From Tessaracoccus defluvii (GTDB lineage Bacteria > Actinomycetota > Actinomycetes > Propionibacteriales > Propionibacteriaceae): a stretch of DNA of 64,000 nucleotides. Under the pieces are notes generated by a model that saw only the letters and a program-made list of their open reading frames with translations, was not told the origin of the DNA and did no database searches. Shown here piece by piece: positions 49,855-64,000 of the stretch. The stretch is from assembly GCF_014489575.1 (NCBI RefSeq), contig NZ_CP060789.1:186001-250000 (forward strand). The letters run 5' to 3'. The translations under genes were made by a program, and so were the position numbers. Every line of letters starts with the position of its first letter. Within the stretch, counting starts at the first letter, position 1.

Positions 49855-52800
49855 CTAGCTCCTCGCGTGCAGGTGCTCGTACAGCATGGCGGGCAGCGCC
49901 CTCGACAGCTCGGCGAACAGGGCCTCGTCGTTGAAGATGTCGACGATGATCTGTGGGGTGTTGTCGTTGACGCTCAGCACAGCGTCCATGAACGCCTTCG
50001 GCAGGGCCGGTGACTCGCTGAACTGCTGCGGGGTGTTGGCCATGGCCTGGCTGGCGAGTGTCTCGTCGTGGGCGAGGTTGAACACGATGTTCGACATCGT
50101 GCCGGCGACGACACCCTTGCCGTACTTGTCTCCGAAGCGTTCGTTGAGCTTCTCGATGATCTCCTCGAGGGCGCTGCGGTGCTTCTCGTGGATGGCGCCG
50201 GATCCGATGGCGGTGATCGGATCAAGGCCCGGGCCCTGCTCGAGCGTGAGCTTCAGCGCGTCACCCTTGGTGATGCTGTAGCCGGTGAGGCTGACCTGGG
50301 AGACGTCGACGGGCTCCTCGAAGGTGGCGGTGCTGAGTTGCGGCAGGATCCGGCGGAGGAAGAAGTGCAGCCGGGGCAGGTCGGTGTCCTCAAGGTTCCT
50401 GGCCTGCGAGACGAAGTCGTAGAACTTCACGAAACCGCCAGCATCGGACTTGAACAGCTTCAGCTCGTCCGCCGCGGCGCCGTCGTCATCGACGAACGCC
50501 TGCTGCCAGCGTTTGGTGAAGCGGTCGACGGCGGGCGCGGTGGCTGCGGTCAGCGCACTGTTGGCGTTGGGGCCGCCGGTCAGCGCCGCGTCATAGGCCC
50601 GCTCGACCTCGGTCCAGTCGTAGATGCCGGCCGCCTCCAGCTTGCTCTTCAGGTCGTAGGCGAGGTTCGGGTCGGTCGTCGCTGTGAGGGTGGCCTGTCC
50701 GTAGTACGGCAGGAACGCGTCGAGGATCGCCTCCGGCTCGTTGACGAAGTCGAGCACGAACGTCTTGTCCTTGCCCGGGTGGGTCCGGTTCAGCCGCGAC
50801 AGCGTCTGGACGGCCTGGACTCCGCCGAGCTTCTTGTCGACGTACATCGCCACCAGACGAGGCTGGTCGAACCCGGTCTGGAACTTCTCGGCAACGATCA
50901 TCACGTTGTAGACCGACGGTCGGAACGCCTCAGCCAGGTCGGACGTCCACAGGTCCGGGTTCTGCGTCTTCTCCGTCAGGCCATCGCCGACGTCCTCAGG
51001 GTCGTCGACGGTGCCGGAGAACGCCACCAGCGACTTGATGCCGGCGATGTGGTCGTCGTCGAGGTAGCGGTCGAGGTACTTCTTCCATCGGACAGCCTCC
51101 TTGCGGGAGCCTGTGACCACCATGGCCTTGGCCTTGCCGTCGAGGAGGGGAGCCACGAAGGTGCGGAAGTGGTCGACGACGATCTTCGCCTTCTGCGAGA
51201 TGTTCGTCGGGTGGAGCCGGACGTAGCGCACCAGAGCCTTGACGGCCGTGGACTCGTCGACCTCGCCGGGCCCGTCGTAGTCCTGCCCGGGGTGCTGCAG
51301 CTGCCAGGCCACCTTGTAGGGGGTGTAGTTGGTCAGCACATCGAGGATGAACCCCTCCTCGATGGCCTGCTGCATCGAATACAGGTCGAACGGCTCCGGG
51401 AGGGTGCCGCCGTCGGGAATCCGTCCGAACAACTCGAGCGTCTTCGCCTTCGGGGTTGCCGTGAAGGCGAAGTAGGAGATGTTCGGGGCATGAGCGGTGA
51501 CTTCCATCGCCCACTGGAGGTACGCCTCGGCGTCCACCTCCGCGCCGTCGGCCACCGCGGCGAGCTCGTCGGGGAGAGGACCTTGGCCAGCGCACCGGCG
51601 GTGGAGCCGGTCTGCGAGGAGTGCGCCTCGTCGGCGATCACCGCGAAGCGTCGGCCGGACAGCTCCTTGGAGGTGTTGATGAGGGTGATCAGCGCCTCGA
51701 AGGTCTGGATGGTGACGATGACGATCTGCTTGCCGCCGGTCAGGGCGGCCGCCAGCTCGGCGGACTTGGAGCCGCCATCGGCGCGGGTGATGGACCTGAC
51801 CACGCCCCTGTGGTGCTCGAACTGGGCGATCGCGTCCTGCAGCTGCTTGTCGAGCACGGTGCGGTCGGTGACCACCACGACGGTGTCGAACACCTTCGCG
51901 TTGTCCTGGTCGTGGAGCTGGGAGAGCTGGTGGGCCAGCCAGGCGATCGAGTTGGTCTTGCCCGAGCCGGCCGAATGCTGGATCAGGTAGCGCTGGCCCT
52001 GGCCGTGAGCGCGGGCGTGCTCGACGAGACGGGTGACGGCGCGCCACTGGTGGTAGCGCGGGAACAGGATCTTCTTCTGGAGAGTCTTGGCGCCCGTGTC
52101 GTGGTCGACCTCGGTCTCGACCTGCGTGTGCATGAAGGATCCGAGGATCCGCAGCCAGTTGTCGCGCTGCAGGGTTTCCTCCCAGAAGTACGAGGCCGCC
52201 GAGCCGTCCGGGTTCAGCGGGTTGCCGCTGCCCTGACCGCTGCCACGGTTGAAAGGCAGGAACCGGGTCTTCGCGCCGGCGAGCCTCGTGGTCATCGCGA
52301 CCTCGGAGTTCGACACCGCGAAGTGCACGAGGGCTCGCTGACCGAGCGCGAACAGCGGCTCGCCCGCGGGGTTGCGGTCGAACTGGTACTGCTTCGTGGC
52401 GTTGGCAAGCGGCTGCGTGAAGTCGGTCTTCAGTTCCACTGTGGCGACGGGGATCCCGTTGATGAACAGGACCAGATCGAGAGCCTTGTGGGGATGCTTG
52501 GCGGAGTAGTGAACCTGGCGCATCACCCGCAGCCGCATCTTCGCGTAGGCGGCGAGGGTGTCCGGGTTGATCGACGTGGCCGGCCGGAACTGCGCCATCC
52601 GCAGCTTCACCGAACCACCCGTCGGGGGATGTAGCCGAACCCGCTGCGGAGAATCTCCAGCGTGCCGCCGTTCTTGAACGGATCGATGTCCAGCACCTTC
52701 GCCAGCCGCTGCAGCAGAAGCTTCTTCGCCGCTTCCTGCTGGGCCGGGCTGTCCGTGGGGTGTACGGCCTTGGCGTACTCATCCGGCTGTGTGTCGGCGA

Positions 52801-52950
52801 GCCAGCCGAACACGTCCTGTGGGAAGAGGGCCAGCTGCCTGTCGTAGCCGGCGTCGGTGGGGAGTAGAGCCAGCCGTTGGCGGCCAGGTGCTCGCAGATC
52901 TCGGTCTCCAGCACGGATTCGAGATGTGCCCCGGCTACTCCGCTGCTCAT
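49855..52950 (-). CDS. hsdR: Type I restriction enzyme R subunit HsdR (three apparent single-base losses)
   Basis: About 1030 aa once three breaks are closed: near 52870 (SP|TDAGYDRQLALFPQDVFGW), 52620 (GYIPRR|GSVKLRMAQFRPATS) and 51570 (AKVLS|PDELAAVADG). Each needs one added base, two of them in C runs. The nuclease domain has DLVLFINGIPVATVELK (D...ExK). Motor motifs are HSAGSGKTNSIAW (Walker A), VIADEAHSS (DEAH) and FAFTATP (III); QTGFDQPRLVAMYVDKKLGG and QTLSRLNR (VI) follow. HsdR translocates and cuts unmodified DNA with HsdM/HsdS. Start overlaps hsdS by ATGA. Confidence 0.85.
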   Translation of the reverse strand: MSSGVAGAHLESVLETEICEHLAANGWLYSPPTPATTGSWPSSHRTCSAGSPTHSRMSTPRPYTPRTARPSRKRRRSFCCSGWRRCWTSIRSRTAARWRFSAAGSATSPDGWFGEAADGAVPAGHVDQPGHPRRLREDAAAGDAPGSLLRQASPQGSRSGPVHQRDPRRHSGTEDRLHAAACQRHEAVPVRPQPRGRAAVRARSASPRALRGVELRGRDDHEARRREDPVPAFQPWQRSGQRQPAEPGRLGGLVLLGGNPAARQLAADPRILHAHAGRDRGRPRHGRQDSPEEDPVPALPPVARRHPSRRARPRSRPGPALPDPAFGRLGQDQLDRLAGPPALPAPRPGQREGVRHRRGGHRPHRARQAAAGRDRPVRAPQGRGQVHHPRRWRLQVRRAGGRPDRRQADRHRHHPDLRGADHPHQHLQGAVRPTLRGDRRRGALLADRLHRRCAGQGPLPDELAAVADGAEVDAEAYLQWAMEVTAHAPNISYFAFTATPKAKTLELFGRIPDGGTLPEPFDLYSMQQAIEEGFILDVLTNYTPYKVAWQLQHPGQDYDGPGEVDESTAVKALVRYVRLHPTNISQKAKIVVDHFRTFVAPLLDGKAKAMVVTGSRKEAVRWKKYLDRYLDDDHIAGIKSLVAFSGTVDDPEDVGDGLTEKTQNPDLWTSDLAEAFRPSVYNVMIVAEKFQTGFDQPRLVAMYVDKKLGGVQAVQTLSRLNRTHPGKDKTFVLDFVNEPEAILDAFLPYYGQATLTATTDPNLAYDLKSKLEAAGIYDWTEVERAYDAALTGGPNANSALTAATAPAVDRFTKRWQQAFVDDDGAAADELKLFKSDAGGFVKFYDFVSQARNLEDTDLPRLHFFLRRILPQLSTATFEEPVDVSQVSLTGYSITKGDALKLTLEQGPGLDPITAIGSGAIHEKHRSALEEIIEKLNERFGDKYGKGVVAGTMSNIVFNLAHDETLASQAMANTPQQFSESPALPKAFMDAVLSVNDNTPQIIVDIFNDEALFAELSRALPAMLYEHLHARS

Positions 52951-54155
52951 GCGTGTGCTCCTACGTCGATCTTTCCGGTGACGGCGGCTGAGATGAGGGC
53001 GGCTCGGCGCTCACGGGCGAGGTCGGTGGCGCGCCGGGCGGCAGCCATGGCTGCATCGATTTTGGCTGCAGCCTGCTCGATGTAATCGACGATCGCTCGC
53101 TGTTCTTGCAATGGAGGTATGAGAATGGGGGCTGATGCAAGTGTGTCGCGGTTCAACTTCGGTATCGCTACACGCATCGAGCGCTCTGCGGCCCACTCCG
53201 TGAACCATTTTGACAACATTTGCCATTTGAGAAAGCGGTTGTCGAGGGTCTTGGGGGATATTCCCTCGATTGCGTACATATCTGCGCTGCAGAGGCAATT
53301 CTCGGGTGCCACAATGACCTTCGCCAAGGCGGGGCGGATCTTCGAGTAAACTACTTGCCCCTTCCTGACCGGATATTTCCCGCTTATGGCTGACTGCTCG
53401 CTGGCGGCGACAATTTCTCGCAATCGACCGGTGTCCGATTCTACATGGTTGGGAGCGATGAGAGGCAGGTCATTGAAGCGTGGGTCACTCGGCGCCAGCA
53501 GACCGCCCGTCACCCGTGCAACTCGGGAGAATCGATCAACTGACCAATGTGACGGGAATATCGTGACGGGTAGGCTTTGGTCCTCGACCATCGCGGCCAA
53601 GGCATCGATCCCACGTGTCACGGAGCGCGAAACCGTGGCGGCGCGGCGCTCGGTGAGGAGGGCGATGAGTTCCTCGTTCTTCGCGATGAACGCGTCGATC
53701 TGCGCCGTCTCCCGATCCAGGAAGTCCGCAATCGCTCGCCGCTCAGGCAATGGGGGGAGGGAGATCGGCGCCGCCTTGATGGCCGCGGAGGTCATGCTTG
53801 GGAGAGCTGTGTCCGTGGCCCATGCCCCGTAGGGCAACGTGGTTGCCCAATAGAAGGCGAATCGGGGCAGGAGAGCTCGCTCGTTGATGTGGGAATAGAA
53901 CATTGTGTCGACGGTCCAGAAGCGGCCATTGACATAGAGCGGCTTGTCGACTGTCCCTTTCCGTCCGAAGAGCACCGACTCGCCATCGAAGAGGTAGTCG
54001 GATGCTCGTCGGAACTCTCCGCCAGATCCGAACACGGGATATCCGCCCGTTTCAACCTCAACGGCCGAGTAGTCGGCCCCGTTCATCACTCTCGCGAACC
54101 GCCCGAACGTTGTTTGCCGCCAGTGTGTGGGTTGCGAAGCGTGGCTGATGCTCAC
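52947..54155 (-). CDS. hsdS: Type I restriction-modification specificity subunit HsdS
   Basis: A 402-aa DNA-recognition subunit with two target domains. Each ends in a conserved coiled-coil spacer: LPPLPERRAIADFLDRETAQIDAFIAKNEELIALLTERRAA (about residues 133-173) and IPPLQEQRAIVDYIEQAAAKIDAAMAAARRATDLARERRAALIS at the C-terminus. Base composition is lower in GC than the rest of the window, especially in the second target domain (53080-53560), consistent with horizontal origin. It overlaps hsdM and hsdR by ATGA, so the gene order is hsdM-hsdS-hsdR. Confidence 0.92.
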   Translation of the reverse strand: MSISHASQPTHWRQTTFGRFARVMNGADYSAVEVETGGYPVFGSGGEFRRASDYLFDGESVLFGRKGTVDKPLYVNGRFWTVDTMFYSHINERALLPRFAFYWATTLPYGAWATDTALPSMTSAAIKAAPISLPPLPERRAIADFLDRETAQIDAFIAKNEELIALLTERRAATVSRSVTRGIDALAAMVEDQSLPVTIFPSHWSVDRFSRVARVTGGLLAPSDPRFNDLPLIAPNHVESDTGRLREIVAASEQSAISGKYPVRKGQVVYSKIRPALAKVIVAPENCLCSADMYAIEGISPKTLDNRFLKWQMLSKWFTEWAAERSMRVAIPKLNRDTLASAPILIPPLQEQRAIVDYIEQAAAKIDAAMAAARRATDLARERRAALISAAVTGKIDVGAHA

Positions 54156-54661
54156 CGCTCGACCTCATCGAGCATCCTGCGGAGGTCGTTCATGACCGCC
54201 TCGAGGTCGCGGTCGATCTCCTCCAAGCTCCTGGGCGGCACGTACTTGTAGAAGTGGCGCGTGAAGGGGATCTCCGCCCCCTCCTTCGTCTTGGTGTGCT
54301 CGATCCAGGCGTCCGGGGCGTAGGGGAGGACCTCGCGGGTCAGGTAGTCGTCGACATCCTCATCCCAGGGCACGTTCTCCGTGTCGCGCAGCGACGTGTC
54401 GGGCTCGGCGTTGCCCTTGGAATCGGTGCAGACGTCCGCCTCGTCGTCGTGTTCGCCGAGCGCGGCGGTCAGGGCCTTGAGGATCGGCGCCGCGAGCTTC
54501 AGGCCCTGCTCAGCTGCAGAGGCCTTCAGCGCCTTGTGGAAGGCACTTCGGTTGGTCCAAGAAGTCTCGCTGAGCGCCTCGAGCGTGGACCGCAATCGGG
54601 CTGCATCGTCGTCGCCCAGCTTCTGCACTGGCTTCGTTTCGAGTACAGCCTCGATTGCGGG
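54152..54661 (-). pseudogene. hsdM: HsdM methyltransferase, C-terminal remnant
   Basis: About 168 codons of the HsdM tail remain (AIEAVLETKPVQKLGDDDAARLRSTLEALSETSWTNRSAFHKALKASAAEQGLKLAAPILKALTAALGEHDDEADVCTDSKGNAEPDTSLRDTENVPWDEDVDDYLTREVLPYAPDAWI ...). The N6-adenine methylase core (motif I FxGxG, NPPF/Y) is absent, cut at the IS110-like boundary next to a G10 run (54659-54668). With no methyltransferase the locus cannot modify DNA, and restriction would be expected to be lost or repressed as well. Confidence 0.85.
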
Positions 54662-54685
54662 GGGGGGGTGTCCCTATGGTGTCTG

Positions 54686-55485
54686 TCAAGCTGCGACGGC
54701 TGGTCTTGGCTGGTAGTAGGTCCCGTTGCGGAGCATGGCGTGGAGGACATCGACGCGTCGTCGGGCTAGGCAGATGATCGCGGCGTTGTGTTTCTTCCCA
54801 GCGGCGCGTTTCCGGTCGTAGTAGGCGCGTGAATCAGGATCGTGGAGGGCTGCGAAGGCCGAGAGGAACAGTGCTCGTTTGAGGTGTTTGTTCCCGTCGC
54901 GTGAGGGATGCTCTCCGCGGATGCTGGATCCGGATCGCCGGGTGACCGGGGCCAGGCCGGCGTAGGCCGCGAGATGGCCTGCGGTGGGGAATGCTGTGCC
55001 GTCGCCGATGTCGAGGAGGAGTCTGGCTGCGGTCCTGATGCCGACTCCGGGCATTGACATCAGGAGCTGGGAAAGAGGGTTCGCATCGAGGGCCTCCTCG
55101 ACTTGTTTGGCGGCCTCAGCGCGCTGCGTGAGCAGGCCCTGGAGTTGGGCTGCGAGCTGGGGCAAGACCAGCTCGGCTGGCCGGGTGCCGGGGACGGTCA
55201 CGGTTTGCTCTGTCAGGGCCTTCACGATGGCCTCGACAAGGCGCTCGTGCATGCGTGGCGCCAGCGCTTTGGCGGTGGTGGTGAGACGGCGCCTACCGGC
55301 GTCGGCGAGTCCGGTGGGGCCGCAGTACTTGGCCAGTAGGGCCAGCACTGCGGGGTGGCTGATGTTGCCGCCGATGGCGCGTTCGAGCGCGGGGTGGATC
55401 TGGGTCAGGAGGCCGCGGATCCGGTTGGAGACGCGGTTGACTTCGCCCGCGAGGTCGTCGTCGAACCCGACGATCACTTCTAGGT
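54686..55485 (-). pseudogene. IS110-family transposase, N-terminally truncated
   Basis: The C-terminal half of an IS110 recombinase is clear: LEVIVGFDDDLAGEVNRVSNRIRGLLTQIHPALERAIG ... LLMSMPGVGIRTAARLLLDIGDGTAFPTAGHLAAYAGLAPVTRRSGSSIRGEHPSRDGNKHLKRALFLSAFAALHDPDSRAYYDRKRAAGKKHNAAIICLARRRVDVLHAMLRNG, with the conserved catalytic Ser region (SGSSIRG). The DEDD RuvC-like N-terminal domain is missing. The cut at about 55485 joins it head to head with the sulfatase remnant, so the element is dead. Confidence 0.85.
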
Positions 55486-56110
55486 CAACCGCCTCATGGA
55501 GGTGCTGAGCGATTTCGGACTCCGCGAGAACACGGCGGTGCTCTTCGTCTCCGACCACGGCGACATGATGGGCGACCCCTATTTCTACCGCAAGACGGTC
55601 GGGTACGAGGGCAGCGCCCGCGTGCCGTTCCTCGTCCGCCTGCCCGGGGGCCGAGCGGTTCGTCCGAGGGTGGATGAGGTGGTCGAGTTACGAGACATCA
55701 TGCCCACGGTCCTCGACTTCGCTGGGGTGCCCATCCCTGCAGGCGTTGACGGCGTCAGCGTGCTGCCGCTGATGCAGGACGCAGAAGTGACGTGGCGCTC
55801 GGAAATCCACGGTGAACACGTCGCGGAGGTCTTAGGCAACCAGTCGATGCATTGGGTCACAGACGGCAGGAGGAAGTTCATCTGGTTCTCCGGCTCCGGC
55901 ATGGAGCAGTTCTTCGACCTGGACGGCGATCCCACGGAATCGCGGAACCTGATCCACCAGCCGGACCGGGCCGAAGAGGTCGCGGGCTGGAGGAACAGGC
56001 TCGTGGCGCATCTGGATGGCCGGGAGGAGGGGTTCGTCAGCGACGGCAGACTCGTCGCCGACCGGCCGGTCCAGACCGAGATGTCGTGGGTCCGGGCACT
56101 CCTGGGCTGA
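55486..56110 (+). pseudogene. Sulfatase, C-terminal remnant
   Basis: About 207 codons of a type I sulfatase remain: RLMEVLSDFGLRENTAVLFVSDHGDMMGDPYFYRKTVGYEGSARVPFLVRLPGGRAVRPRVDEVVELRDIMPTVLDFAGVPIPAGVDGVSVLPLM ... QFFDLDGDPTESRNLIHQP. SDHGD carries metal ligands of the active site, but the N-terminal half with the CxPSR formylglycine site is gone. It lies next to the fucosidase and probably belonged to the same glycan locus. Confidence 0.82.
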
Positions 56111-56121
56111 GGCGTCGGGGC

Positions 56122-58613
56122 TCAGGCCACAGTCCAGCCGTGCTCCCTCTTGGACGCGAACCTCTCTTCGAGCGATCTGCCTCCCACGGTGGGGGCTGCA
56201 CCCTGCCCCCAGGACTCCACGCGGATAGGTTGATCAGGCGTGCCGTATCCCCAGAGCACGACGTCGGCGTCGGGGGTGTCGGTGCCGGAGCGGAACCGCA
56301 GCACGGCGCCGGTTGCCAGTTCCACGTCCCGGAGCTGCTCCATCGAGGCGATCGGACGTTCAACCGAGCCGTCTCCCGCGTGGCTGACCGATCCGTCGAT
56401 GTGGACCTCCCGTGCCTTGCCCGGGTCTGATGCCAACTGCTCCCACAGGTGGATCGCCGCAATCGTGTAGCTGCCGCGCGACGATGTCACGCGGACCCGC
56501 CAGCGTTGGGCCGTCACGGGCTCGTCGAGTGTGACGATGCGGTGCGCCCCGATGGTGCCCCCCCGTGCCACCTCGCGCCAGCCGTCCCCCTCATCGCACT
56601 CCACGATGAACAGGCGCACCGTCTGTCCTGCCCCGAGGATCTCCTCGCTCAGCCCGACGCGGCTGATCTGTCTGGGCTCGCCGAGGTCGAGTTCGATCCA
56701 GGGGTGCTCGTCGGCCGTGAAGGAGTGGCCTTTCCTGAGGTTGCCGTTGGTCATCGTCGCGACCACGGAGCCCTCCACGATGGCGTCGCGACCCAACGCG
56801 TGGTCCAGCGTGAATGCCTTGCGCCGCTCCGCCGCGAAGCCCTCCACGCTCGCCACCACGTCGGCGGAGAACTGTCCCGAGACGGTTGGGGGCACGTTCA
56901 CCAGCATCACCGAATTGCGACCGTACGTCTGTTCGTAGTGCCGCAGCAACGTCAGTGGGGCCTTGGGGACGTCGTCGGGGTGCGCGAACCACCCGGCAGT
57001 GATGCGCATGTCGGACTCCGTCGGCCACCAGTGCAGCCTGTCAGCGCCGCCCGAGCGGACGGCGTCGACGAGTTGCTGGTCGGATCCGAGATCCGCGGAG
57101 AAGTGACCCTGCTGGACCGGCGAGATGGCCCCCCCGTCGCCGGCGTCGGTGATCGCGACGCTGGCCCATTCGTCCTGGCGTGCCACCCCGCTCTCGTTGC
57201 CGACCCAGCGGATGGCGCGCCCTCCGACGGCGATGTTGGCGCCCGGCTGGAGTTGGTGGATCATGTCGTAGAACGCGGCGTAGTCGTAGTGTTCGGTAGC
57301 GCCTGTGTTGCCTTGGCGCCATCGAACCAGACCTCGTGCACAGTGCCGTACTCGGTGAGGATCTCGTAGAGGGTGTTGAGGAAAAGCGCGCCGTAGTCGG
57401 TGGCATGGTACTCGAACGTCTGCAACTCCTGACCGGCCCGGTCGTCGTCGGCCGTGAGCGTGGGGATGGTCCGAGGACTGCGCTGCGACCCGTTGCCGAA
57501 CGTGCCCTGCAACTCCGCGTTGGAGTCGGCGGGGGACAGGTAGAAGCCCACCTTCATGCCGTAACGATGGGCCGCTTCGACGAACAGGCGCGCGATGTCG
57601 CCGCCACCGGAGGCCCAGGAGCTCGCCTTTACGGAGTGGTCGGTGTATCGGCTCGGCCACAGGCAGAAGCCGTCATGGTGCTTGAGCGTGATCACTGTGG
57701 TGCGGAAGCCCGCGTCACGCAGCACCCTTACCCAGGCGTCGGGGTCGATGTCGGAGGGGAGGAACCGGCCCGGGTCCTCGGTGCCGTGGCCCCACTCCTG
57801 GTCGTAGAACGCGTTGATGCCGAAGTGGATGAAGGCGGTCAGACCCTCCTGTTGCCAGACGGCCTGCTCGGGTGTCGGTCTCAGCAGTGATGCCTTGTGG
57901 ATGATGGCGGCGGGGGAGTCGCTCGGGCTCACGTTCTGGTAGTTGGCCGGGTGGAGTCCGGCAAGGTCGGCGGCCTCCGTGGCAGTGAGCTCGGTCTCGA
58001 CGTCGATAACCGGAGTCGTAGGTTGCCAGCGCCACTCGGAGGACGCGACGGCCACGCGTACACCGTGGACCTCGCCGACGAGCCCTGAAGCGCCCTCGAA
58101 GTCGCTGCCGAAGCTGAACAGCGCCTGATCCGAAACCGGGCCGAACTCCAGGTACCCCATGTCCCGGCCGTCGAGACGGGCCTCCATCTGCACGGAACCT
58201 TCGTCGCTCCGGATGATCCGCACCGACAGCGTGTGGTGGGTATCGACGCCGAACACGTCCTCGCCGCCGGGCCAGCCGTGCCATTCGCCGCGGGCCCACA
58301 GCATCAGGTTCAGGTGATGCACACCCAGCGTCACTCCGGAGCTTGTGATCAGGACCGCAGGGCTGACCGTCGGCTGGTCAAGTGCGAAGCGCAGTTCAAC
58401 GGTCGAACCCTCGGGCTGCGCAGCGGCAGGCTCAAAAAGCAGACCCCCGTCGCCGGCCAGCCTCACGCCGGACACGGACTGCTCCTCGGCTCCGGTGATG
58501 GGGCGCAGCGTGCCCCGCATCACCTCCCCGGCCTGGGTGGTGTATTGCTTGCCCTTCACCAGCGAACCGGCGAACTCCACCTGCAACAGGTCCGGCTGTT
58601 CCCGTCTTTCCAT
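56122..58613 (-). CDS. GH29 alpha-L-fucosidase with LamG-like and F5/8C domains (one apparent frameshift)
   Basis: Removes terminal alpha-L-fucose. Reconstructed length is about 830 aa: residues 1-195 a LamG/concanavalin-like domain, 215-560 the GH29 barrel (FIHFGINAFYDQEWGHGTEDPGRFLPSDIDPDAWVRVLRDAGFRTTVITLKHHDGFCLWPSRYTDHSV; nucleophile in EVWFDGAKA), then an F5/8 type C carbohydrate-binding region (HPWIELDLGEPRQISRVGLSEEI). No signal peptide, so action is cytosolic on imported sugars. The frame breaks near 57295; one added base gives GAKATGATEHYDY. ATG 58613 follows AAGGAG. It is divergent from the sugar importer. Confidence 0.85.
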
Positions 58614-58695
58614 CTCGGCTCCTTCGGTTTTGGGGCTTCCTCGGCCTCTTGAAGCGGACTATAGTGGGCCCGTTGGCGAGACGTCACACCATTTG

Positions 58696-58709
58696 TGTTA
58701 GCGTTAGCA
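58696..58709. promoter_or_regulatory. LacI/CcpA-type operator between fucosidase and importer
   Basis: TGTTAGCGTTAGCA fits the LacI-family cre pattern TG..A.CG.T..CA with the central CG. It lies 83 bp upstream of the fucosidase start and about 100 bp upstream of the first permease, well placed to control both directions. A related half-site (GTGCTAACAC) occurs at 62593-62602, just before the second sulfatase. Confidence 0.7.
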
Positions 58710-58810
58710 CCATTGGCCGCAGGCCTCGCCGGGACGACCGAAGTTGTGAGTCCCGAAGAACGATCGATGACGGTGGGTCAAGGGCCAGCCCCGCCGGGAG
58801 AGGAGTCGAG

Positions 58811-59727
58811 TTGGCCGCCAAGAGCCGAACGGCAAACCGCATCACCGAGACCAGAGGGGACAAGCGCCTCAACGTCACGCTTCTGGTAGTCCTCGGGCAT
58901 TCTCGGTGTCGGTGTTGTACCCGCTGATCTACGTCATAAGCGCGTCCCTGTCGGAGACGTCGGCGGTCACCTCTGGCGAGGTCTGGCTGTTCCCAATCGG
59001 ATTCTCGACGAACGCGTACACGGCGGTCTTCGAGTCGCCGCTGCTGTTTCGTAGCATCCTGAACTCGTTGTTTTACGCCGGGATGGTGATCGCCATCGGC
59101 ACGTTCGCGACGATGGCGGGGGGCTACGCGCTGTCGCGGCGCGACCTGCCTGGCAGGAACCTCCTCACGTTCGCGTTCATGATCACCATGCTGTTCAGCG
59201 GCGGCATGATTCCCACCTACTTGGTCGTGCGCGATCTCGGGCTGCTCAACACCGTGTGGTCCATGATCCTTCCGGGCGCGGTCAGCGTGTGGCAGTTGAT
59301 CATCTCGCGTGCGTTCTTCTCCCAGACCATCCCGCATGAGCTCTTGGAGAGCGCCAAGATGGACGGCGCCTCCGACTTCACGTTCTTCTTCAAGGTCGTG
59401 TTGCCGCTCTCGGTGCCAGTCCTTGCCGTCAACATGCTGCTCTACGGCGTCACCACCTGGAACGCCTTCTTTAACGGCCTGATCTACTTGACCGACGAGG
59501 AGTTGTACCCGCTGCAGCTGGCCATGCGAAACATCCTCGTCCAGAACACCTTCGACCCGGCGAAGATGGCGGGCGTGGACCCGACGAAGATCGCCGAGAT
59601 GCAGGCCATCGCCGGCAAGCTCAAGTACGCGCTGATCGTGATCGCGTCGATCCCGCCGCTGTTGGCATACCCGTTCGTCCAGAAGCACTTCGTCAAGGGC
59701 ATGATGATCGGCTCGGTGAAGGGATGA
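58811..59727 (+). pseudogene. Sugar ABC transporter permease (LplC-like), one apparent frameshift
   Basis: TTG 58811 follows GGGAGAGGAG and reads AAKSRTANRITETRGDKRLNVTLLVVLG, then the frame moves by one lost base near 58893, and continues VSVLYPLIYVISASLSETSAVTSGEVWLFPIGFSTNAYTAVFE ... to 59727. The EAA loop is ELLESAKMDGASDFTFFFKVVLPLS. It forms the CUT1/LplC class of permeases for complex oligosaccharides (compare alginate and polysaccharide importers). It pairs with the downstream permease, overlapping it by ATGA. Likely live if the base loss is an error. Confidence 0.8.
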
Positions 59728-60731
59728 CCCAGATGTTAAACACCAACGACGGCACCGCATCCACGGACAGTGCGCACAAGGGAGGAGCCGCCTCCGGGAG
59801 CACCATCCGGAGCAACAGGCCGGTTCCCCTCCTGAAGCGGATGGCCAGAAGCTGGCAGCTGTACGTCCTGTTGCTGCCGAGCCTGATCTGGCTCGTCCTG
59901 TTTGCCTACCTGCCGATGTACGGCCTGCAGATCGCCTTCAGGGAGTTCAACCCCATGCAGGGCATCATCGACAGCCCATGGGTGGGCCTTGCCCAGTTCG
60001 AGAGGTTCTTCGAGTCCAACAACTTCGTGCCGCTGTTGTGGAACACGATCGCGCTGGCGCTCTACGAACTGATCGCGGGATTCCCGATTCCGATCGTCCT
60101 GGCACTCGCACTGAACGCCCTTCGCCAGAAGTACCTCAGCCGTTCAGTGCAGCTGATCACCTATGCACCGAACTTCCTGTCCGTGGTCGTCGTGGTCGGC
60201 ATCCTCATGATGATCCTGGACCCCCAGATCGGCGTGGTGCACCAAGTGGCTGGCGCGCTCGGGATCGATGCGCCGCAGTTCCTCACGGATCCGGGATGGT
60301 TCCGCCACATCTTCGTCTGGTCCGGCATCTGGCAGACCGCCGGGTTCTCCGCCATCATGTACCTCGCCGCTCTCAGTTCCGTACCCCCGGAACTCCACGA
60401 GGCCGCCAAGGTCGACGGCGCGTCCCTGTTCCGCCGCATGATCCACATCGACCTGCCGTCGATCATGCCGATCGCCGTGATCCTGTTGATCCTCAGTGTC
60501 GGCAACATCCTGAACACCGGTTTCGAGAAGGTCCTGCTCCTGCAGAACCCCCTGAACCTCACCGTGTCGCAGGTGATCGACACCTACGTCTACGAGGTGG
60601 GCCTCAAGTCACCGATACCCCAGTTCAGCTATGCCACCGCGATCGGGCTGTTCAAGTCGGTTGTCGGCCTCATCCTCTTGTTGGCGGTCAACTTCTTCGC
60701 CAACAAGACCACCAAGAGCGGTCTCTTCTGA
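59724..60731 (+). CDS. Sugar ABC transporter permease (LplB-like)
   Basis: A 335-aa membrane protein: helices include LYVLLLPSLIWLVLFAYLPMYGLQIAF, LWNTIALALYELIAGFPIPIVLALALNAL, LSVVVVVGILMMIL, and the EAA loop ELHEAAKVDGASLFRRMIHIDLPSI. This is the LplB/YtcP class that works with an LplC-type partner and a large lipoprotein receptor for oligosaccharides. It overlaps the upstream permease and is followed by the receptor gene; the ATPase is not in the cluster and is probably a shared MsmK-type protein. Confidence 0.93.
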   Translation: MTQMLNTNDGTASTDSAHKGGAASGSTIRSNRPVPLLKRMARSWQLYVLLLPSLIWLVLFAYLPMYGLQIAFREFNPMQGIIDSPWVGLAQFERFFESNNFVPLLWNTIALALYELIAGFPIPIVLALALNALRQKYLSRSVQLITYAPNFLSVVVVVGILMMILDPQIGVVHQVAGALGIDAPQFLTDPGWFRHIFVWSGIWQTAGFSAIMYLAALSSVPPELHEAAKVDGASLFRRMIHIDLPSIMPIAVILLILSVGNILNTGFEKVLLLQNPLNLTVSQVIDTYVYEVGLKSPIPQFSYATAIGLFKSVVGLILLLAVNFFANKTTKSGLF

Positions 60732-60787
60732 GTCGGCGCACCATTCCAGCTCCCAAGTCTGTATCCCCAATGAAAGGTTCGAAGTCT

Positions 60788-62542
60788 ATGTCCGAGCACA
60801 TCCTGCCGAAGGCGGCAGTTTCCAGGCGCTCCCTCCTGACGGGCGGGCTTGGCGTCACAGCCATGGTCGGCCTGTCCGCCTGTGGTGCAAGCGGCTCCAA
60901 CACGCCCACCACCGCGGCGTCCACTGCTGGTGGTTACGTCCCGGGGAGCGCGCAACTGAAGGTCGAACTCGGCAAGGAGTTGACCGGTGTCCTCTATCCC
61001 GACGGCTACGTCGGGCCCAGGGCCCGCGCTGCCGAGAAGTTCGCTGACGGCCAGACCACATACAGGGTGGTCGCGCGTAGCTTCGTCGGTCAGGACGTCG
61101 CCGGGGTCAACGCCTTCTCCAAGCATCTGGAGGAGGCCACCGGCGTCAAGGTGCAATACGAGATCGTTCCCGCAGGCGACGACGGCGCACCCAAGCTGAA
61201 CGCCATGATGTCCTCGGGTGACCTTCCTGATGCGTTCATGACGGGTGCCCCGTGGATGGGCGGCTTCACCCGCTCCCAGCTCTGGACGTACGGGCAGCAG
61301 GGGATGTTTCTACCCCTGGATGAGCTGATCGACCAGTATGCCCCAGAGTTGGTGAACCTCTTCAGTCAGTTCCCGGAATTGCGCAAGGTCATGACCGCCC
61401 CCGACGGGAAGATGTATGCGTTCCCATCGATCAACCAGTGCTTCCACTGCGCTTCGAGCGGGCAGCGCACCTGGATCCACACCCCCTCGGCCGAGGCCGT
61501 CGGTGTCACGGGGGAGAGCGTCTCCACTCTTGAGGATTTCGAGGCGTTGCTCAGGGAGTTCAAGACCATGGGCATGATCCCCATGAGCGGTTACATCGAT
61601 TTCCCCCCGATGTCGCTCATCGAGGCGGCCTACCTCAACGTCGGCGAAGATCGGCTGCGGCGCAAGGACGGCCAGATCTCATACACCCCGATCGAGGAGG
61701 CGTGGCGCGAGGCGATGATCACCACGAACCGGCTGGTCAAGGAGGGTTTGCTGGATCGCAACGGCTTCAGCCAGACCAAGGAACAGTTCACGCGGCTGGC
61801 GATGGACCCGGCGGGCACCCGGGTGGCCGTCCTGCCCGGTGGGTCCCAAGGCGAGTTCGCCGAGGTCAACTTCAGCGACCCCAACGCCAGGTTCCGCGAG
61901 TTCGAGCCGCTGAAGCCCTTCACCGGACCTGATGGCAACGCCTACATCGCCTGGAGGTACAATCCCGGTCACAACGTCGGTCTCGTCCTGACCAGCAAGA
62001 CGCGCAACCCAGAGGAACTCATCCGCTGGGCCGACTACCAGACGGGCCTAGTCTCGACGCTCACCATGCGGCTGGGCGCACTCGACGAACACTGGGTATG
62101 GGCGGCCGAGGGCGACACGGGCATTGACGACCGCCAGGCTGTCTACAAGAAGACCGCAACCCCAAGCGACGAGAACGACGTCTGGTGGGAGATGGGTCCC
62201 TACAACTTGGTGATGGACGTCCGCCATGGGGAGTTGGTCGACGAGGCGACCTCGATCGAGCCCGCCCTCTACCGTGCCGGCAAGATGTACGAGCCCTTCG
62301 CCGCACCGGAGGAGGAGTACTTCCTGGAGCCGTTCTTCACGGTCGAGCAGGCCGCCCAGGTGGGCGAGTTGAAGGTGAACCTCGACAACGCGTTCAAACA
62401 GGGCCGGGCCAACCTCGCCCTCGGCAACGCTGACCCGACCAACGACAAGGACTGGGAGAACTACGTGAACTCGATGAAGAGTGCGGGTCTGGACCGCTAC
62501 CTTGAGATCCTCAAGGCCGCGGACGACGCCGCCAACGGCTGA
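60788..62542 (+). CDS. Oligosaccharide-binding lipoprotein (LplA/LipO-type)
   Basis: A 584-aa extracellular receptor. The ATG at 60788 is preferred over 60770 because AAAGG precedes it and a twin-Arg-like lipoprotein signal follows ([21 protein letters not shown], lipobox LSAC). The mature protein is an extracellular type 1 solute-binding fold ([65 protein letters not shown] ... YWGLYNPDK-like [13 protein letters not shown]). The size places it with receptors for large or charged glycans. It probably captures sulfated fucosylated oligosaccharides, by context. Confidence 0.88.
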
Positions 62543-62634
62543 TCCGGCACGCACTCACCCTGCACCCACAGGCGCCACGCGGGCGTCTGTGGGTGCTAAC
62601 ACTTCCAACGCCGACCGCGTCACAAGGAGTCACC

Positions 62635-64000
62635 GTGTCCATCGCCACCGCCAGGCCCAACCTGCTGTTCGTGATGTCCGACGACCATGCGGCCCACGCG
62701 ATCAGCGCCTACGGCAGCGCGGTGAACCAGACGCCCAACATCGATCGGATTGCCCAGGAGGGTGCGCGTCTCGACAGGGTGTTCTGCACCAACTCAATCT
62801 GCACGCCGTCGAGAGCGACCATCTCACCGGCACCTACAGCCACGTCAACGGCGCCTGCTCCATCTACTCGGAGCTGGACTACCGGGTGCCGCCGTACTCC
62901 CAGGTGCTGCGGGCTGCGGGGTACCAGACCGCGATCTTCGGGAAGTGGCACCTGGGCGTCTCGCCGCAGGCCAGACCTCGGGGGTTCGATGACTGGCGCA
63001 TCTTTCCTGGTCAGGGGGCCTACGTGGACCCCGTCATGTACGGTCCGGACGGCTAGGGTGTTGTCGAGGGCTATGCCACCGACATCATCACCGACCTGAG
63101 CCTCGAGTGGCTCCAGGTCAGGAACCGGGACCGGGCCTTCTGCCTCATGGTGCACCACAAGGCTCCGCACCGCCCATGGGTGCCGCATGAGCGACACCGG
63201 GACCTCTACCCCGCCGGCTCGATCCCCGAGCCTCTGACCATGTGGGACGACCACAGCGGTCGTGCAAGCGTTGTGCAAGCGGTTCGGATGACGATCGCCG
63301 ACGACCTGACCGATGCCGACATCAAGGAGACCGTTCCGGCGGAGTTGTTGGGAGCCGAGAACACACGGGAGCGGGCAGCGTGGAAGTACCAGCGCTACAT
63401 GCGTGATTACCTGCAGACCGTCCAGGCCGTCGACGACGGGTCGGCCGACTTCTCGACTGGCTCGATGCTGAAGGCTTGGCCGAGAACACCATCGTGGTCT
63501 ACACCTCGGACCAAGGCTTCTTCCTCGGAGACCACGGCTGGTTCGACAAGCGCCTGATGTACGAGCAGTCCCTTGGCATGCCGCTGGTCATCAGGTGGCC
63601 CGCGGAGATCACCGCCGGAACCCGGTGCCAGGAGATGATCATCAACGTGGACTTCGCGGCCACGTTCCTGGACATGTGCGGGCTGGACCCCGACGTTGCG
63701 CTGCCCCACCAGCAGGGCCGGAGCTTCCGTGTCCTCCTTCGGGGAACGGACGTGCCCGACTGGCCATCAGCTGTCTACTACCGCTACTGGGAGCACGACG
63801 ACCCGGAGCACCACGCCCCAGCGCACTACGGCGTCCGCAGCGAGGACTTCAAGTACATCGTCTACTACAACGACGGACTGGGGACGCCCGGGTCGTCCGA
63901 GCGGGTCCTGCCGACCGAGTACGAACTGTTCGACCTCCGCAGGGATCCCGCCGAACTGCACAACGTCGTCGATGACCCGGACTACGCCGCCGTGAGGCTG
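62635..64000 (+). pseudogene. Type I (formylglycine) sulfatase, broken, 3' end outside window
   Basis: GTG 62635 follows [60 protein letters not shown] carries metal ligands (SDDH) and the CxPSR formylglycine motif. Frame is lost near 62828 (one base; repaired reading [47 protein letters not shown]). An in-frame TAG follows at 63054-63056 ([13 protein letters not shown]). A second base is lost near 63428 before LLDWLDAEGLAENTIVVYTSDQGFFLGDHGWFDKRLMYEQSLGMPLVIRWP. The gene runs past 64000. It would desulfate host or algal glycans. Two base losses may be errors, but the stop codon needs separate proof. Confidence 0.78.

Follow-up and report, generated by a model that had tools for sequence, protein, structure and literature searches.

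The window analysed here, a stretch of 64,000 nucleotides from the Tessaracoccus defluvii genome (G000), ends inside a locus which, judged from its gene content and flanks, was in our assessment likely acquired horizontally and would serve the use of fucosylated, α-galactose-capped, 6-sulfated host-type glycans. A near-identical copy is present in a second species (G019), the two sharing 98.2% DNA identity over 20.5 kb; for glyS the value is 84%. The block carries genes for a GH29 protein, two permeases, a lipoprotein receptor, a single sulfatase that has the catalytic Cys motif, GH110, GH95, GH2 and GH20 proteins and a Gfo/Idh protein (Table 1). The original prediction had confined the locus to 55486-64000; the window in fact halves it, as the last five of these enzyme genes (GH110, GH95, GH2, GH20 and Gfo/Idh) all lie past the window end at 64000, on to G000:C1:261961. 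An account of this locus was not found among the open-licence matches listed, as excerpted.

Table 1. Features of the locus and its flanks. Plain numbers are window positions; G000:C1 numbers are contig positions.
Feature	Position	Strand	Basis or remark
hsdR (not in one frame)	49855-52950	-	ORF; name by inspection, without family search
hsdS	52947-54155	-	ORF; name by inspection, without family search
hsdM 3' part	54152-54659 (ORF 54152-54628)	-	homology to unbroken relatives reaches 54659
IS110-family 3' remnant	54660-55475	-	left boundary of inserted segment
Shared block, 20.5 kb	55476 to G000:C1:261961		edges by comparison with G019
S1-type sulfatase C-terminal fragment, without catalytic Cys motif	55476-56110 (ORF 55496-56110)	+	Pfam Sulfatase and SGSH_C
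GH29 α-L-fucosidase, C-terminal F5/8-type-C domain	56122-58613	-	Pfam; two frames here, 829 aa in G019
LacI-family operator TGTTAGCGTTAGCA	58696-58709		between divergent GH29 and permease genes; same site in G019
Permease C, BPD_transp_1	58906-59727	+	Pfam; NCBIfam sugar-permease models below cut-off
Permease B, BPD_transp_1	59724-60731	+	Pfam
Divergent tract, 2.3 kb	60249-62531		covers permease B 3' half and receptor
Solute-binding receptor lipoprotein, 584 aa	60788-62542	+	Pfam SBP_bac_1; lipobox LSACG by inspection
S1 sulfatase 2 with SICTPSR	62593-64000, on to G000:C1:250093	+	several frames here, one ORF in G019
hsdM N-terminal part	G000:C1:263395-265014		HsdM_N and N6_Mtase

Two formylglycine sulfatases had been proposed for the locus. 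Sulfatase 2 bears this out, whereas the frame at 55496-56110 covers only positions 225-301 of the 301 in the Sulfatase profile (Pfam) and misses the catalytic-Cys part, so that the block holds one Cys-motif sulfatase and not two. The nearest PDB relative of sulfatase 2 is the N-acetylglucosamine-6-sulfatase 5g2v (E 7e-122), followed by 9s03 and 7p24, a mucin-desulfating sulfatase (E 7e-108); 5g2v and 7p24 are, we take it, S1_11 members. The alignment to 5g2v reveals the motifs GWFDKR and HYG in common, which presumably hold the S1_11 recognition triad of His and Asp/Arg. The nearest characterised relatives, together with CTPSR (C-x-P-S-R), tentatively place sulfatase 2 with the S1_11 GlcNAc-6-sulfatases, the subfamily being assigned from PDB similarity. 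As for the sulfatase-maturating enzyme that the original prediction had proposed to look for, candidates of FGE type and anSME type are encoded elsewhere in G000, the latter above the NCBIfam cut-off.

The GH29 enzyme combines PF01120 with a carbohydrate-binding domain, as had been described, and its nearest PDB relative is 4zrx, followed by the α-1,3/4-fucosidases 3mo4 and 3ues. The GH95 protein is nearest to the α-1,2-fucosidase FucOB and the GH20 protein to hexosaminidases. The GH110 protein matches GLAA-B (PF23764) at 33.5 bits (cut-off 28) and has nine PDB relatives named α-galactosidase, α-1,3-galactosidase or GH110, of which the α-galactosidase 8yk1-8yk3 ranks first (best E 7e-109) and α-1,3-galactosidases follow. 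An HDD pair, a candidate for the catalytic Asp residues, is kept in the alignment to 8yk1. An assignment of the Gfo/Idh protein to GH109 was rejected, since 6t2b (E 5e-6) and 2ixa (E 6e-5) fall far behind the 'probable dehydrogenase' 3moi (E 7e-21). As judged by homology only, exo-enzymes for α-1,3-Gal, α-1,2-Fuc, α-1,3/4-Fuc, β-Gal and β-GlcNAc are thus found together, as a kit for histo-blood-group or mucin glycans would have them. This gene content fits blood-group/Lewis-type sulfated host glycans as the substrate, and not fucoidan. The island revealed no sialidase, no GH109 and no enzyme of endo type, and larger glycans would therefore need outside help.

The original prediction of an actinobacterial import-and-degrade locus for fucosylated, sulfated sugars stands, and sulfated mucin O-glycans suit it; the sulfated algal fucans or fucoidan fragments that it named first do not, on gene content. 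The GH29 and GH95 fucosidases and the sulfatase do occur with the importer, as a fucan locus would have it, but GH110, GH2 and GH20 would serve no purpose on a fucan. Moreover, GlcNAc-6-sulfatase is the closest relative of the sulfatase, the importer has its nearest named relatives in Arachnia propionica strains, and the Pfam search of the island's 11 genes, the island being its scope, revealed neither an endo-fucanase, nor fucan sulfatases, nor a further glycosidase family. A role in fucan use is consequently regarded as extremely improbable.

Sulfated galactans of the λ-carrageenan or agar/porphyran type, for which GH110 would serve as the α-1,3-galactosidase while the sulfatase would desulfate galactose residues, are only slightly less improbable. 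A galactan would require neither the two fucosidase families nor GH20. The GH110 protein is closer to 8yk1 than to 7jw4 (E 2e-36), which is presumably the marine PdGH110B, and 5g2v outranks the exo-L-galactose-6-sulfatase 7lha, although the presence of the latter among the sulfatase relatives (E 1e-95) agrees with a galactan. The link of a marine GH110 clade to λ-carrageenan, as given in the excerpted text of PMC7939477, speaks for this reading and against the preferred one. The wider range of S1_11 sulfatases, which also act on L-galactose-6-sulfate and heparan substrates (PMC10154612, in excerpt), likewise counts against the preferred reading.

For the preferred host-glycan reading, a route of degradation can be proposed, the glycans being histo-blood-group B/α-Gal and Lewis motifs on mucin-like chains. 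The receptor lipoprotein and the two permeases would import the oligosaccharide, with the ATPase presumably encoded elsewhere. In the cytoplasm, GH110 would cut α-1,3-Gal, and GH95 and GH29 would cut α-1,2- and α-1,3/4-fucose, respectively; the sulfatase would strip 6-sulfate from GlcNAc, while GH2 and GH20 would take β-Gal and β-GlcNAc. A cytoplasmic location is suggested by a rough hydropathy scan over the N-terminal 60 residues, in which a secretion signal is not evident for the island enzymes: the glycosidases and the sulfatase score 0.31-0.94 and the Gfo/Idh protein 1.27, as compared to 1.57 for the receptor.

The two-permease importer with its receptor lipoprotein agrees with what had been predicted, and the PDB relatives of the receptor are 5g5y/5g5z and AlgQ2. 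When genome contigs were searched with an alignment query, 82 receptor relatives were found and 80 kept, while a single-sequence query returned none. The best named are Arachnia propionica strains, in whose names 'COT' presumably stands for canine oral taxon. Among the 17 best named of the 80, GH29 lies within 10 kb of the importer in six loci, the nearest four included, and the other 11 importer loci have no GH29 nearby. The divergent tract displays 92.7% identity to G019 as compared to 99.1% for the remaining block, and the receptor gene differs between the two copies about eight times more than the remainder. It looks as if the receptor tract had been swapped.

The LacI-type operator predicted at 58696 was recovered exactly at that position, and none of 100 shuffled windows matches the pattern. 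Exact sites number two in the 3.86 Mb of G000, and the second is directly upstream of the fucI operon, whose L-fucose isomerase is above cut-off. In 27 of 39 genomes of the genus, the motif also occurs at the orthologous transporter gene of the fuc operon; fucI itself was seen close to a motif site in G000 and G062 only. The number of motifs is not enriched in G000 (three sites for the reversed control pattern against two). An operator common to the fuc operon and the island is what a FucR-like LacI regulon would display, LacI binding being predicted. The occurrence of this operator at both places and across the genus suggests that the locus is probably part of the host's fucose regulon. A LacI gene had been anticipated beyond 64000 and does occur at G000:C1:266717-267754; it lies, however, outside the insertion and has no exact operator, and the LacI of the fucI operon appears to be the better regulator candidate. 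Such a repressor, most likely from the host fucI operon, would act on the 58696 operator, and the acquired locus would thus be switched on together with fucose catabolism.

The present assembly breaks the reading frame of several enzymes, which counts against a working locus. GH29 and sulfatase 2 are not in one frame in G000, while both are single open frames in G019, and the fuc-operon LacI gene also looks frame-shifted. All 11 one-base losses in the block fall in G or C runs, and the two one-base gains are outside genes; one-base losses in homopolymer runs are a typical long-read error. Sequencing error is therefore a more likely cause of the broken frames than decay. It is considered unlikely that this is a decaying pseudogene island, with one of its sulfatases cut short and genuine frame breaks in GH29, permease C, sulfatase 2, GH95, GH2 and GH20. 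Decay would account for the 4.13 frame changes per aligned 10 kb in the island as compared to 1.72 elsewhere (binomial P 0.06). It would also explain why dN/dS between the two copies approaches or exceeds 1 in the sulfatase-1 fragment, permease C, sulfatase 2 and GH20, though this is based on only 4-9 changes each. It is at odds with the confinement of losses to G/C runs, with the low dN/dS of the receptor (0.19) and permease B (0.11), and with frame changes in other genes of this assembly (9 of 39 compared with genome G028); the reverse test, with 6 of 40 in G028, indicates that the frame test itself is noisy. At the nucleotide level, 68 one-base losses and 63 gains were counted against G028, a comparison noisy at about 82% identity, so protein frame tests were used instead.

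The block lies between two IS110 copies that point the same way; the IS110-to-IS110 segment of 22.75 kb is inserted in hsdM of a type I restriction-modification operon, the hsdR part of which displays 80-84% DNA identity to four relatives. In all four relatives fetched, the two hsdM parts adjoin and hsdM is unbroken. The outer ends match one insertion, with the IS 5' end against the N-terminal part and the IS 3' end against the C-terminal part, and the target at the island is C-rich, as for the other IS 3' ends found. Transposase matches in G000 are confined to the two flanking copies. These are not near-identical, as a fresh composite transposon would have them: the remnant displays 86% DNA identity to the full right-boundary copy, as compared to 96% for an IS110 copy of G019, and its 5' part is missing, with everything ahead of residue 132 (of 398) of the transposase. 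When the full IS110 was compared with the G019 copy for a mosaic, identity was 93-98% across the two leading 100-column windows, which are 5' non-coding, and 74-92% thereafter. Folding gave no evidence for a bridge RNA in the 5' non-coding region (z -2.0, where 200 bases taken arbitrarily from the window gave -2.5), and L023 and L024 have no Rfam match.

The remnant abuts the sulfatase fragment, which starts at the left edge of the shared block, 55476. G019 has the same first base, and the edge was considered as a mobile-element end; this was rejected, because translation of the G019 DNA suggests that a frame resembling a sulfatase, interrupted by two stops, runs on upstream of that base, which the sulfatase 2 tblastn match spans. 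The cut at the left edge is therefore probably specific to G000.

Tentatively, an IS110 pair of the bridge-RNA type may have mobilised the whole locus, at the cost of a broken type I modification gene; the operator, matched to a genus-wide fucose repressor, would plug the cargo into the recipient's fucose regulon, and the receptor gene, swapped separately by recombination, could retune the choice of glycan. A little under an even chance is given to a route in which an older IS110 resided in hsdM and the island came by homologous recombination with that copy or by another element, the flanking IS110 being incidental. The 86% identity and the missing 5' part agree with this, as do the neighbours of the G019 block, which is not bounded by this IS110 but by a Mutator-family transposase and tyrosine recombinases; the single insertion in a C-rich target argues against it. 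Either route is compatible with the proposed function.

Import followed by intracellular GH95/GH29/GH2/GH20 digestion, as proposed here, is the strategy of another actinobacterium, Bifidobacterium longum subsp. infantis, in its HMO cluster, which to our knowledge is without GH110 or GlcNAc-6-sulfatase. The mucin set of Bifidobacterium bifidum is alike in its enzymes (AfcA GH95, AfcB GH29, GH2, GH20 and a GH110 acting on blood group B), but these are surface-anchored and scattered in the genome, as excerpted from PMC7232152; here they form one block with importer and sulfatase. The pneumococcal ABC-type fucose locus (SPG2105-7) similarly joins α-L-fucosidase and other glycosidases to a CUT1 importer that lacks an ATPase of its own, and its receptor is reported to bind blood group A/B trisaccharides; it belongs to a Firmicute, GH110 and sulfatase are not named in the excerpt of that report (PMC3302838), and our receptor matches 5g5y/AlgQ2 types instead. 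The Bacteroides thetaiotaomicron PULs with the S1_11 sulfatases BT1628 and BT3177 likewise pair a 6S-GlcNAc-type sulfatase with mucin glycosidases (PMC10154612, in excerpt), though in a Gram-negative with a SusCD importer rather than an ABC importer. If the present reading is true, a complete host-glycan diet can be handed from one actinobacterium to another in a single event, already wired into the recipient's fucose regulon. The locus would also provide a compact clustered enzyme set acting on GlcNAc-6-sulfate and on Lewis and blood-group B and H structures. The segment also offers a natural case of IS110-family ends bounding 22.75 kb with non-resistance cargo. IS110-composite units with antibiotic resistance genes are described for pVP52-1 (22,778 bp) and pEC11-1b (29,626 bp), where, according to the excerpted PMC11322368, IS5075 and IS4321 are inverse and on a plasmid, whereas the present segment is chromosomal, carries catabolic cargo and has direct copies, of which one is truncated.

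A single 20.5-kb match of 98.2% DNA identity (55476-75961, window-based) is shared between Tessaracoccus defluvii (G000, one contig of 3.86 Mb, with the window at G000:C1:186001-250000) and G019, a separate species-level genome within the genus, from which two joined stretches were compared. The DNA on either side of the match is unrelated between the two genomes, and the control gene glyS is only 84% identical; the block would therefore have moved after the split of the two species, and its sequence is a clear indication of recent transfer. Among the 36 same-genus genomes searched, own included, a receptor of more than 90% identity occurs in G000 and G019 only, the relatives in G034 and G023 being 61% identical. 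GH110 matches are sporadic in the order, occurring in 14 of 293 genomes and in 2 of 37 genera (11 of the 14 matches below 1e-100). The G019 copy adjoins a Mutator-family transposase and tyrosine recombinases. Three such recombinases lie beside it at L047 14629-19881 (L047 being the fetched stretch of G019), a triplet which we take to resemble a recombinase-in-trio element.

The site of insertion in G000 has been elucidated by comparison of hsdM, the two parts of which are 22.75 kb apart in this genome. They adjoin in all four relatives fetched (G018, G030, G033 and G022; 86-87% for the N-terminal part), with 12, 133, 186 and 12 bases, respectively, between the aligned pieces. Both ends of the 22.75-kb stretch consist of IS110-family DNA, in the same orientation, and these two copies are the only matches to the IS110 transposase in the whole G000 genome. 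The 5' end of the full copy lies directly at the N-terminal part of hsdM, and the 3' end of the remnant directly at the C-terminal part, within a C-run; the other end of the full copy meets the island, again at a C-run, and a C-run likewise borders the 3' end of a G019 IS110 copy. This arrangement fits a composite-transposon-like insertion, by which an IS110-bounded segment would have entered hsdM. The full copy and the remnant are 86% identical, while the IS110 of G019 is 96% identical to the remnant and 87% to the full copy; the island may also have come by recombination with an IS110 already resident in hsdM. In PMC11208160, IS110 elements are described as being inserted, excised and inverted with the help of a bridge RNA; folding and Rfam analysis gave no evidence of such an RNA here.

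Features of the locus and its insertion site (G000:C1, contig positions; L024 and L047, fetched stretches of G000 beyond the window and of G019)
Feature	Position	Remarks
hsdM C-terminal part	window 54152-54659	
IS110 3' remnant		adjoins hsdM C-terminal part; transposase residues 132-397
Gfo/Idh protein	G000:C1:260542-261795	G019 counterpart L047 12744-13997
Full IS110 copy, 398 aa		adjoins hsdM N-terminal part; PF01548 and PF02371
hsdM N-terminal part	G000:C1:263395-265014	
Second, intact GH29; LacI gene	G000:C1:265141-267754 (L024 9141-11754)	between hsdM N-terminal part and glyS

The LacI gene sought beyond 64000 is present with the second GH29, outside the insertion. As hsdM is about 230 bases from glyS in G018 and G030, G000 differs from them at this site by the pair as well.

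The GH29 enzyme, two permeases, lipoprotein receptor and S1 sulfatase of the original prediction are all present in the window; however, the other of its two sulfatases (55496-56110) is a C-terminal fragment only (profile 225-301 of 301). The locus runs on 3' of the window with a GH110-type beta-helix enzyme, GH95, GH2 beta-galactosidase, GH20 and a Gfo/Idh protein, up to G000:C1:261961, the right limit of the block common to both genomes. The locus type, an importer with intracellular glycosidases, is known already, and the combination of GH110, GH95, GH29 and GlcNAc-6-sulfatase in one block is uncommon. Assignment of the Gfo/Idh protein to GH109 is not supported, its sequence not being close to that family; it may act in sugar oxidation or as an oxidative glycosidase. 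An ATPase gene was not found among the island genes, and a shared ATPase is assumed to serve the importer. A search for the sulfatase-maturating enzyme revealed anSME-type and FGE-type candidates elsewhere in G000 (G000:C1:375504-376574 and 474102-474989), whereas in G019 the FGE type alone passes the cut-off.

Coupling of importer and GH29 is often observed: among the best 17 of 80 named loci, GH29 lies within 10 kb of the importer in 6 and not in 11, and it is found in all four nearest loci (two Arachnia propionica, Brachybacterium timonense and Micrococcales 31B). When the N-termini of the longest ORFs of the island were scanned crudely for hydropathy, the receptor scored 1.57 and the Gfo/Idh protein 1.27; the glycosidases and sulfatase stayed at 0.31-0.94, and none of them looks signal-like. 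These N-termini, along with the lipobox of the receptor, make import first and digestion after the likelier order.

In G000, GH29, permease C (N-terminal part), the S1 sulfatase, GH95, GH2 and GH20 are not in one frame, while they are open in G019. All 11 one-base losses of G000 relative to G019 fall in G or C runs, and both one-base gains lie outside genes. Frame tests gave 8 changes in 5 of 10 island genes, as compared to 9 of 39 genes elsewhere in the assembly (4.13 against 1.72 changes per 10 kb; binomial P 0.06). The latter genes were compared with another genome, G028, in which 6 of 40 genes change frame in the reverse test; part of the changes is therefore test noise or G028 errors. The 9 of 39 suggest uncorrected long-read homopolymer errors in the G000 assembly, and the broken frames are more likely due to sequencing error. 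They may also reflect real decay of the island: dN/dS is near or above 1, with few substitutions, in the sulfatase fragment, permease C, the S1 sulfatase and GH20, which relaxed constraint could yield as well. Sequencing error does not explain the truncation of the sulfatase fragment, since this gene breaks off at the IS110 junction; its frame in G019 also seems to hold stops. ORF-based readings of G000 thus need care.

Divergence between the two copies is concentrated in a 2.28-kb tract (60249-62531), which takes in the 3' half of permease B along with the whole receptor and holds 167 of the 331 island substitutions. Identity is 92.7% inside it and 99.1% in the remaining block, an about eightfold greater divergence. 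In the receptor dS is 0.22 and in permease B 0.09, whereas the nine remaining island genes have values of 0.002-0.03; receptor dN/dS is 0.19. By this pattern, the receptor allele looks to have been replaced as a cassette, in one copy or the other, rather than altered by adaptive point changes. Substitutions also cluster, more weakly, just past the window, where 33 of them lie between the sulfatase end and the GH110 gene into which the cluster extends (64046-64805; G000:C1:250046-250805).

The operator pattern TGNTANCGNTANCA has two sites in G000, one between the divergent genes of the island and one at G000:C1:2479675, against three for the reversed control pattern. The site at G000:C1:2479675 immediately precedes an operon that holds RbsABC-like transporter genes, a LacI gene, an L-fucose isomerase above its NCBIfam cut-off and a rhamnulokinase/fuculokinase-like kinase below its own. 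At least one site occurs in 31 of 39 genus genomes, and in 27 of these 31 it is at the RbsA-like orthologue (17 of 30 first-fetched loci, one per genome; 9 genomes from 20 further loci; and G000); none was seen there for G011, G012, G003 and G035 among the fetched loci. As the fetched pieces are short, fucI was seen near a site in G000 and G062 only. The island loci of G000 and G019 lack an RbsA gene. No exact site occurs at the importer loci of G034 and G023; the one site in each of these genomes is at the RbsA-like gene. The LacI/GH29 pair beside hsdM in G000 also lacks an exact site. The island is linked to a fucose operator that most genomes of the genus retain, and we infer that the LacI protein of the fuc operon controls the island.

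The substrate of the locus is a prediction from enzyme relatives, and the fucoidan reading is to be dropped. The closest solved structures are alpha-galactosidases 8yk1-8yk3 for GH110, 4zrx followed by alpha-1,3/4-fucosidases for GH29, the alpha-1,2-fucosidase FucOB for GH95 and beta-N-acetylhexosaminidases for GH20; for the sulfatase they are, in order, N-acetylglucosamine-6-sulfatase 5g2v, 'putative sulfatase' 9s03 and mucin-desulfating sulfatase 7p24. Reported substrates of GH110 enzymes are blood group B and linear alpha-Gal or, for a marine clade, linear alpha-1,3-Gal of the kind found in lambda-carrageenan (PMC7939477). According to PMC10154612, the S1_11 sulfatases BT1628 and BT3177 desulfate the GlcNAc of mucin glycans at position 6, and other members of S1_11 have L-galactose or heparan substrates. 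Bifidobacterium bifidum, as described in PMC7232152, likewise has GH95, GH29, GH2, GH20 and GH110, there acting on mucin O-glycans; its genes, however, are distributed separately, unlike the single block of the island.
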